Shown piece by piece: positions 7,833 to 14,314 of a DNA stretch of 64,000 nt. The notes under the pieces are model-generated. The model did not search any database. It was not told where the DNA came from and was given only the letters and a program-made list of their open reading frames with translations. Position 1 is the stretch's first letter. Each line of letters starts with the position of its first letter. The DNA lies in NCBI GenBank assembly GCA_019745975.1, contig JAIESQ010000045.1, forward strand, positions 62,001-126,000. The letters are read 5' to 3'. Position numbers and translations under genes: made by a program. The DNA is from Pirellulales bacterium. Its GTDB lineage: Bacteria > Planctomycetota > Planctomycetia > Pirellulales > JAEUIK01.

Positions 7833-8771
7833 GCGTTCAAGATGGCCGCCGCGGTCGGGCGCCGTCGCCGGATACTCGGGCCAAGGCGTGCCAGCGGCGA
7901 GTTTCGATCAGGGCACTGTCCACCCGATTCTGGCCGCTGCAAAGGCTCCCAGCACAGTCATCCCTTGGTGCTCGGGACGCAGCACCCGCGCAAAGCCTTT
8001 TCTCGGGATTGCCGTTACTAATCCTCGCCGCAGAAACGGTATAGGTCGGCCACGGCCGGGCGCCGACGGGCGCGTTACAACTTCGATATTGCCCCGGTGC
8101 GGGGTTCTAGTGATACTGGTGACTAGACACAAGATGTGTTGGATGCCGGCCGCCCGGTCGGCATTCGGCGAGCATGGAGCAGATTGCCCACGGGTTACGA
8201 CCTCATCTCCGGCCCCGACTTGCTCTTTGTCAAGTTCTCTCTGGGTGTGCCCGCGAACGACTCGCGGTGACCGAGGCCGATATTCCCGCCGGCCAAGTGC
8301 TGGCCGAGTTGTCTGATTAGATCGTGGTTTTCTGGCCTGGAAAGCCGACCTCCGAGTCGCGCGCGCGTGCGCACCCACAGCCCGCCGGCGGAGCCTGACC
8401 GTCTCGGGTCGAGAGAACCACATAGAGCGAAAGCGCGTCGGAACAGAGAGCTAATCATGTCGCATCCCGGGCCAATCAGCGACGCCTCGCGTTGACAACC
8501 GAACGCTTGGAATCTTTGCCGCGAAGCCGGCGCCGGGCCAGGTTTTTCCCGCTGCGCACTCCTCATGCGCGAGGAGGGCCCCGAACCCGGCGCGGACCTT
8601 GCGCGCGAAGACAAGCAAACGAACAGGAATAACACCACAAGCCGCGGCCCGCACTTTCGGCCGGCCGCGGCGAGCCATGCAGACGCCGGTCGGGGCAGTG
8701 CCGAGACGGGCGACTTGATTTGTCAGTCGACTCGCTCGAGCAGAAGACCGGCTCAACTGGAGAGCCCATCG
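7833..8771. other. Long gene-poor intergenic region upstream of prkA
   Basis: About 940 bases without a credible gene. Open frames exist on both strands (for example 7888-8316 plus and 8195-8638 minus) but their translations are rich in Arg, Ser and Pro with no recognisable motif, as expected from GC-rich non-coding DNA. The only recognisable element is the GGAG ribosome-binding site of prkA at its right edge. The prkA promoter and any regulatory RNA would be here; I see no clear sigma-54 or sigma-70 boxes. Confidence 0.4.
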
Positions 8772-10814
<2,043 letters not shown>

Positions 10815-10832: not shown

Positions 10833-11106
10833 GGGGACTGTCCCGAATGGCATCAAGTTAGTACTAAGTCGATTCGCCACAGGGCTGAAGCAGTGCTGTA
10901 GCAGCACGCTTGCATCAGACCGCTGTCGCGATGATTCTCGGGTTTCGCGCGCGGACATGGTTCGACGAATCTGCTATCGCAGCAATGCTTAACGAAACTG
11001 TGCACAGTATTTGCGCTTAACTTGATGCCATTCGGGACTGTCCCAATTTTGCCGCATTGGCTTGCGCGACGGTGCGCGGCACGACGGCAAAATGGGACTG
11101 TCCCCC
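10833..11106. repeat. Cluster of nested inverted repeats built on a GGGACTGTCCC core
   Basis: Four copies of a near-palindromic GGGAC(T/A)GTCCC core lie between prkA and yeaH. The unit at 10834-10860 (core plus GAATGGCATCAAGTTA) recurs inverted at 11018-11044, and the latter's core is shared with a second unit (core plus an ATTTTGCCG arm, 11034-11056) that recurs inverted at 11083-11105. The arrangement resembles REP/BIME clusters, often mobilised by RAYT (Y1-type) transposases, but no such gene is in the window. The enclosed 158 bases contain another small stem (GTGCTG/CAGCAC near 10893-10907). It could attenuate or stabilise the prkA-yeaH transcript. Confidence 0.75.
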
Positions 11107-11155: not shown

Positions 11156-12265
11156 ATGGTCCAACGCATCAATCACGATCACTCGCGCTTCCGCCAGATT
11201 GTTCGCGGCCGCATCCGCGACAACTTGCGGAAGTACATCACGCACGGCGAGATGATCGGCCGCAAGGGGCGCGAGCTGGTCAGCATTCCGCTGCCGCAGT
11301 TGGACCTGCCCCATTTTCGCTTCGGCCAGAATGGCTCCGGCGGAGTTGGCCAGGGAGATGGCGAAGTCGGTCAGCCGCTCGGCCCAGGCCAGGAACAGGG
11401 TCAGGGCGCCGGCCAGGCGGGGAGCGAGCCGGGCCAACACTTGCGCGAAGTCGAAGTCACGCTCGAAGAGCTCGCCGAAATCCTCGGCAACGAGCTGGAG
11501 CTGCCGCGCATCGAGCCCAAGGGCAAGGCCAACATCGACGAACTCAAAACCAAGTACACCGGCATCCGCCGCTCGGGCCCCGAGTCGCTGCGGCACTTCA
11601 AGCGGACCTATAAACAGGCCCTCCGCCGGCAAGTCGCCTCAAACACTTACAACCCGGCCGATCCGCTGGTGGTGCCGATCAACGAAGACAAACGTTACCG
11701 CGCCTGGAAGTCGATCCCGCAGCCGCAGGCCAACGCGGTGATCGTTTACATGATGGATGTCTCCGGCTCGATGACCGACGACCAGAAGCAGATCGTCCGC
11801 ACCGAGGCGTTCTGGATCGATACCTGGCTCAAGAGCCAGTACAACGGGCTCGAAATCCGTTACATCATCCACGACGCCGCGGCTCGCGAGGTCGACGAGG
11901 AAACCTTCTACCACACGCGCGAGAGCGGCGGCACGCGTATTAGCTCCGCCTATCGTTTGTGCGTCGACTTGCTCGGGCGCAGCTTTCCGCCCGACGAGTG
12001 GAACGTCTACTGCTTCCATTTTTCGGACGGCGACAACTGGGGCGAAGACAACGAAACTTGCCTGGGGTTGCTGCGCGACGAACTGTTGCCGCGGATCAAT
12101 TTGTTTTGTTACGGGCAGGTCGAAAGCCCTTACGGCAGCGGCGAGTTCATTCGCGCGCTGCGCTCGGGCTTCAAGGACGAGCCGGAGAAACTAGCGCTCT
12201 CCGAGATCCGCAACAAAGAGGGCATTTACGACTCGATCAAGCTGTTTTTGGGCAAGGGGCGGTAG
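11156..12265 (+). CDS. yeaH: YeaH/DUF444 family protein
   Basis: 369 aa, shorter than E. coli YeaH (about 430). It starts [20 protein letters not shown], the typical DUF444 opening. A Gly/Gln-rich linker spans about residues 58-95. The C-terminal half is a von Willebrand A-like domain with a MIDAS DxSxS motif in [11 protein letters not shown] (D201). The protein is the conserved partner of PrkA and SpoVR; its function is unknown, but the operon is tied to stress survival and sporulation-like programmes. ATG 11156 fits the conserved N-terminus. The 341-base gap behind prkA is larger than usual for this operon and is filled with inverted repeats. Confidence 0.94.
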
Positions 12266-12365
12266 TTTCTTCGCTTTTTGGGACCGGAATTTGCAGAGAT
12301 TCGATTTGGGGCTTTGTGGCGTTCGTGCTTGGTTCACTTCATCCTCGCAATGAGCTGGCAACATC

Positions 12366-12626
12366 ATGAGCTATCGACAACAGCCTCGACTGACCCGCTT
12401 TCGCGTAGAGGTGGGACATTCTCAGGTAATCGTGCTCGCCTGCGATGCCGTTGAGGCGGTTCGCGAAGCGCGCCTGGCGTTAGGTCGCGACATGCCCCGG
12501 TTGTGGGATGTGATCCACCAGTTGGACGACGGTCAGTTCGTCGTCCAGGCCGTCTGGAACGCGGGGACTAGCGCCGTGCCCTTTGCGGGCCCGGGTGGAG
12601 CCCACGGTTCCGCAGCCGGTTCGTAG
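12366..12626 (+). CDS. Small uncharacterised protein within the prkA-yeaH-spoVR cluster
   Basis: 86 aa. No family recognised. The first 60 residues look like a genuine folded domain (FRVEVGHSQVIVLACDAVEAVREARLALG split by a short loop, then a DMPRLWDVIHQLDDGQFVVQAVW stretch), resembling a beta-alpha-beta unit; the last 20 are Gly/Ala-rich. It is co-oriented between yeaH (100 bases upstream) and spoVR (150 bases downstream), so it is probably co-expressed with them. There is no strong ribosome-binding site before ATG 12366. It might be a planctomycete-specific accessory of the PrkA system; that is inference from position only. Confidence 0.6.
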   Translation: MSYRQQPRLTRFRVEVGHSQVIVLACDAVEAVREARLALGRDMPRLWDVIHQLDDGQFVVQAVWNAGTSAVPFAGPGGAHGSAAGS

Positions 12627-12637
12627 ACGAGTCATCC

Positions 12638-12720
12638 GACCGTGTGGGTGGCCCGGAGACGGCACAGCCGCATCCGGGTCGCGCAGCGACAAGAGGACTT
12701 GTTCGGAGTCGTAGCTGATT
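12638..12720. repeat. Dispersed repeat fragment, partner of 53063-53218
   Basis: Bases 12678-12699 are identical over 22 nt to the reverse complement of 53158-53179, and both are intergenic and accompanied by GGGTGGC-type ends. This copy is in the 149-base gap before spoVR. It suggests a second dispersed repeat family, more degraded than the 130-bp element. Confidence 0.45.
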
Positions 12721-12775
12721 TCGGGTGCCGCCGCGAGCACGGCGCGCCGCCGCATTGCTGATCTGGTAACAAACG

Positions 12776-14314
<1,539 letters not shown>

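Follow-up and report, generated by a model that had tools for sequence, protein, structure and literature searches.

Two successive insertions, a REP-like hairpin and an IS4-type MITE, as the probable origin of a long prkA-yeaH spacer in a Pirellulales bacterium

The prkA-yeaH spacer and its repeated cores

The genes prkA, yeaH (a DUF444 gene), and spoVR follow one another on one strand of the window, as the whole 64-kb stretch of DNA analyzed here is called (Table 1). The start codon of prkA is the analyst's choice. Its stop codon lies at 10812-10814, and yeaH begins with ATG at 11156, which gives the gap of 341 nt that the initial annotation had reported in an operon that it described as usually tight. 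That description is fair. Of 57 genomes, 37 have YeaH matches (40 rows in all); 30 of the rows, the window's included, were measured as loci. In all 30, yeaH directly follows prkA on the same strand, and the gaps range from 37 to 488 nt (median 123 nt); the gap in the window is the second longest. The closest relative as judged by YeaH is G006 (82% identity), where the gap is 57 nt and holds no core of the kind described below. The next gap of the window, between yeaH and spoVR (12266-12775, about 510 nt), is longer still, and gives no match to the hairpin models.

Table 1. Features at the locus, in window coordinates.
Feature	Position	Strand	Details
prkA	8769..10814	+	Pfam AAA_PrkA 320.6 bits, PrkA 296 bits; upstream gene
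GGGACTGTCCC, left copy of 11-bp target duplication	10834..10844	+	
189-bp IS4-type MITE	10845..11033	+	inverted ends 10845-10860 and 11018-11033
GGGACTGTCCC, right copy of target duplication and core of hairpin left arm	11034..11044	+	
REP-like hairpin	11034..11104	.	inner stem TTTTGCCG/CGGCAAAA; models R1 34.6 bits, R2 31.8 bits
GGGACTGTCCC, core of hairpin right arm	11094..11104	+	
yeaH (DUF444 gene)	11156..12265	+	Pfam DUF444 298.2 bits; NCBIfam PRK05325.2-3 633.3 bits
spoVR	12776..14314	+	Pfam SpoVR 464.9 bits; further downstream

The three exact cores listed in Table 1 are the only ones in the window, where dinucleotide shuffles lead one to expect 0.04, and a scan allowing one mismatch finds no further core there. 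This rules out the cluster of four REP cores that had been proposed; its middle core had been counted twice, as it serves both of two inverted pairs. The two pairs themselves, with their different arms, are indeed present. The left pair (10834-10860/11018-11044) has arms of 27 nt that are 96% complementary and 157 nt apart, while the arms of the right pair (11043-11054/11085-11096) are 12 nt long and 92% complementary. These pairs had been called nested; they are instead adjacent, with one core in common. Genome-wide, the exact core occurs at 56 places. Because GGGAC-W-GTCCC is its own complement, matches to it come up, of course, on both strands.

The predicted RNA fold of the spacer is strong (-150.9 kcal/mol, z = -6.0, with 0 of 100 shuffles equally low). 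Neither a terminator-like site on the coding strand nor a sigma-70 promoter-like site was found in the gap, which rules out both as its content; the sole terminator-like site there is on the minus strand, at chance level. A known Rfam RNA is likewise ruled out as the identity of the block, with no match between 10600 and 11300. The initial annotation had pointed out that such clusters can stabilize upstream mRNA or reduce downstream expression. Here, the strong predicted fold makes it possible, and no more than plausible, that the block stabilizes the mRNA of prkA and lowers that of yeaH-spoVR.

The 189-bp element and its full-length relative

The element between the left and middle cores runs GAATGGCATCAAGTTA...TAACTTGATGCCATTC. 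Its own genome (G000) holds ten full copies, nine of them identical and one with a single base difference, a near-identity that suggests a recent burst. Perfect 11-bp direct repeats flank all ten. The duplicated 11-mer is GGGACTGTCCC or its complement at three sites and GGGACAGGTAC at two; GGGACACGTAC, GGGACAGGTCC, GGGACGGAGAT, GGGACAGGGAC, and CCCCCTCTGGT are each found at one site. Thus, seven of the ten duplicated 11-mers differ from GGGACTGTCCC, which means that the core is a target duplication rather than part of a transposon end. A scan of the named genomes with the MITE pattern gave no match, in a search that the records of the element's own genome may lie outside.

An eleventh pair of ends of this type bounds an element of 1717 bp (G000:C116:6346-8062, L103), the only full-length insertion sequence (IS) that carries them. 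The first 17-18 bp and the last ~20 bp of the MITE match those of this element. A short element, having inverted ends in common with a full-length IS of its genome and present in several copies with target duplications, is what the term MITE describes. The common ends also suggest that the MITE is mobilized in trans by the IS4 transposase of the genome. The 1717-bp element contains a stop-to-stop frame of 458 codons, which matches NCBIfam transpos_IS4_1 (183.9 bits, cut-off 115) and Pfam DDE_Tnp_1 (81.2 bits) and carries the YREK motif, Y(2)R(3)E(6)K. Its flanks, GGGACGGGGCA and GGGACAGGTAC, do not match each other, which suggests a rearrangement at one side. Apart from the ends, this IS and the MITE have in common only a short stretch, which lies about 41 bp from the right end. 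The MITE therefore cannot be derived from this IS copy by simple internal deletion.

For subgroup IS4 of the IS4 family, the table in PMC2266710 gives ends of the form -AATR--------WTW----, YREK, duplications of 10-13 bp, and a size of 1400-1650 bp. The ends GAATGGCATCAAGTTA, compared by eye with that table, fit, as do the YREK motif and the 11-bp duplications at all ten MITE copies, the flanks of the full-length copy being mismatched. The window copy differs in being a 189-bp non-autonomous derivative. At 1717 bp, the full-length relative lies above the tabulated size range, which makes its placement in subgroup IS4 probable rather than certain. Marked insertion specificity is described for some members of the family in the same source (PMC2266710).

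Relatives were sought in other genomes of the order. The transposase has a match at E <= 1e-60 in 10 of 396 genomes, its own included, one each. Thirteen loci were compared (L181-L190 and L145-L147); L181 is the IS described above, and L182 and L145 are the same site, which leaves 11 other distinct elements. Two of these are flanked by a perfect direct 11-bp duplication (L145/L182, GGACCAGACCC; L186, GATGCCGCCTG). In three, judged by eye, the inverted match between the flanking 11-mers is better than the direct one, being exact at L183 and covering 8 of 11 positions at L184 and L147; the flanks of these three resemble the two arms of a hairpin repeat with the IS between them. No flank match of either kind was found at L189, and five elements have one end only or a doubtful end (L146, L185, L187, L188, L190). 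A 102-bp element with nearly the ends of the MITE is present in G009, from another family of the order (G009:C68:17389-17490, L110), between GGGACCGTGAT and GGGACTGTGAT. Thus, 11-bp duplications and GGGAC-like targets recur among the relatives, but the relatives are not uniform.

The hairpin family and the choice of targets

The right half of the block is a hairpin, which models R1 and R2 match at this one place in the window. The first alignment held 15 hairpins from the same genome, nine from MITE-free places and six from MITE places whose flanks were joined; 5 of 20 stem pairs show paired changes on both sides. Among 30 further MITE-free matches (20 of them distinct), 6 of 20 pairs show such two-sided changes and 98.3% of cells pair, values that 0 of 500 shuffles reached, in an alignment that, having been fitted to the structure, is biased in its favor. 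The genome has at least 117 matches to this family, corresponding to at least about 96 places once 21 matches judged by eye to be second-strand duplicates are subtracted; the count is a lower bound, 150 of 5071 candidates having been scored. Absence of the repeat elsewhere in the genome would, by the test that the initial annotation set itself, have refuted it; the family is instead abundant there, and hairpins without the MITE are common. A stricter search gave matches in 13 of 57 genomes, its own included, and in 0 of 6 other genomes of the same bacterial family. The distribution among the 57 genomes is patchy.

A palindromic repeat in many copies, whose stem pairs are kept through paired changes, has the character of a REP. 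It had been suggested that a RAYT gene be sought next to similar repeats. The genome contains 15 Y1_Tnp (RAYT-type) matches, 14 of them above the Pfam cut-off, and hairpins of the same plan do lie near 5 of the 15, on both sides at L009, yet their inner stems are unlike that of the window hairpin. The arms begin GGGGAC, and the GTAG tag of classical REPs is absent. Repeats that flank RAYT-like genes have the TIR motif GGGGWSAS (PMC3733652), which the beginning of the window arms, GGGGACAG, fits; the motif section of that paper names no planctomycete. Hence the label "REP-like" is used. The window hairpin is REP-like, and probably of the RAYT type. The REP-like cluster of the initial annotation thus survives in its right half, a hairpin family at about 96 places or more, and gives way in its left half to an IS4-type MITE with its 11-bp duplication.

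Variants of the hairpin plan were also seen. At L029, L031, L034, and L050 (near position 400 in each), a lone GGGACTGTCCC core stands between outer flanks of the hairpin type, CG or TG before it and a CTC-rich stretch after it. These are perhaps hairpins that collapsed by recombination between two identical arms. At L030:371-414 lies a tandem of four 11-mers, three times GGGACTGTTCC and then GGGACTGTCCC.

Model R2 was built from MITE-free places, but was picked using R1, which had seen MITE places. It finds a hairpin abutting 7 of the 10 MITEs (those of the window, C48, C114, C156, C170, C181, and C193), with modest scores at the window (31.8 bits) and at C48 (27.7 bits). The C163 site has one core, with outer flanks that resemble those of a hairpin, and no hairpin was found at C173 or C201. 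R2 also finds a hairpin abutting the full-length IS, and another abutting L145, an element of "Planctomycetales bacterium isolate HKST-UBA20" with a transposase that is 57% identical; the hairpin, one arm of which contains this IS, belongs to the same family (55.7 bits). R2 has matches at L146 and L188 too, though away from the IS ends. As hairpins make up about 0.1% of the genome, the adjacency of 7 of 10 MITEs to them is not chance (P ~2e-19, 90 places).

What directs the element to the arms? Nine of the ten targets begin with GGGAC, which largely explains the targeting of REPs by a preference for sequence. The genome matches the pattern GGGGACNGNNNC 242 times on the forward and 242 times on the reverse strand; read backwards, the pattern gives 146 and 115 matches. 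Among the first 100 listed matches to GGGGACNGNNNC, 38 lie inside hairpins. Seven insertion sites fit this pattern, six of them in hairpins (P = 0.014 against 38 of 100). Orientation is constant as well: GGGAC lies at the same end of the MITE in all nine GGGAC-led sites (six informative, three near-palindromes), and insertions into hairpins of the GGGACAGGTAC type used the same arm in five of five. The arms are favored mainly through their sequence, with any further preference at most modest.

It is, of course, conceivable that the transposase recognizes the folded two-arm hairpin as a structure, beyond the sequence of its arms. The hairpins beside seven of the ten insertions, and their excess among the sites that fit GGGGACNGNNNC, are what such recognition would produce. 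Two insertions nevertheless lack a hairpin, one of them GGGAC-led all the same (GGGACGGAGAT, C173), and no hairpin was found at the 102-bp element of G009. With most of the pattern explained by sequence preference, recognition of structure is unlikely.

Origin of the spacer and its meaning

The reading preferred here, with a probability of roughly 0.93, is that the spacer was lengthened by two successive insertions, a REP-like hairpin and later an IS4-family MITE into its GGGACTGTCCC arm. In the first step, a RAYT-type REP-like hairpin of ~70-80 bp with two GGGACTGTCCC arms would have entered the spacer, as relatives without the hairpin suggest. In the second, the 189-bp non-autonomous element entered one GGGACTGTCCC arm, duplicating those 11 bp. 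With targets that are mostly GGGAC-led, and hairpin arms forming a large share of such sites, the arms act as landing pads. Comparison of the ten copies shows the MITE insertion and its 11-bp duplication. Because this duplicated the core of the hairpin, it created the first inverted pair, and with it the appearance of nested inverted repeats. Without the MITE and one duplication, the spacer would measure 141 nt; without the hairpin as well, 70 nt. The pre-insertion site at the window is deduced from other places, a hairpin-only strain at this exact place not having been seen.

Alternatively, the whole block might be one composite BIME-like REP cluster, with arms all of one family, that stabilizes or attenuates the operon mRNA. 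Identical cores, a REP-like right half, and the strong predicted fold of the spacer would all agree with this. The two halves, however, occur apart: the left element lies at seven other places without the core, always between 11-bp direct repeats, and the hairpin is widespread without the left element. The coding strand also lacks a terminator-like site. As an account of origin, the composite cluster is refuted by the flanks of the ten MITE copies, and it is very improbable overall. Refuted by the same flanks is a 211-bp element in which the core belongs to a 27-bp transposon end (GGGACTGTCCCGAATGGCATCAAGTTA) and is not duplicated. The 27-nt length of the inverted arms, core included, would agree with it, as would the core or its complement at three of ten copies, but the other seven have different 11-mers, exactly duplicated on both sides. 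A core that is nearly its own complement, moreover, lengthens the apparent arms when it stands on both sides.

Known systems offer parallels to the two insertions. IS231A has the target GGGN5CCC and an 11-bp duplication, and thus resembles the present element in its G/C-bounded, near-palindromic 11-bp target. The ends of the IS231 subgroup are CAT... in the table of PMC2266710, whereas those of the window element are GAAT.... A parallel in the choice of targets is ISRm22, which belongs to the IS4 family and is present nine times in REP elements of Sinorhizobium meliloti (PMC1525189). It is a full IS rather than a MITE, and comes from another phylum and another subgroup, IS4Sa (PMC2266710). Both kinds of element are thus already known, and the passage on ISRm22 (PMC1525189) puts the targeting of REPs by an IS4-family element in print; by these sources, the present case is not a new system. 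No report of a MITE that targets REPs came up in searches of the open-licence literature.

A wider proposal can be offered tentatively: that a planctomycete IS4 lineage and its MITEs have become specialists that land in the arms of RAYT-type repeats, with a fixed orientation of insertion. If this is true, then at least two host families harbor a miniature mobile repeat that lives on another. At the locus itself, the ten sites and the near-identical copies make a clean case of an IS4-type MITE with REP-like arms as its targets in Planctomycetota, and they illustrate neatly the insertion of one repeat into another. A repeat cluster that looks regulatory within an operon can be a by-product of an insertion that duplicates a near-palindromic landing site. 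This, in turn, is a warning against reading function into such clusters.
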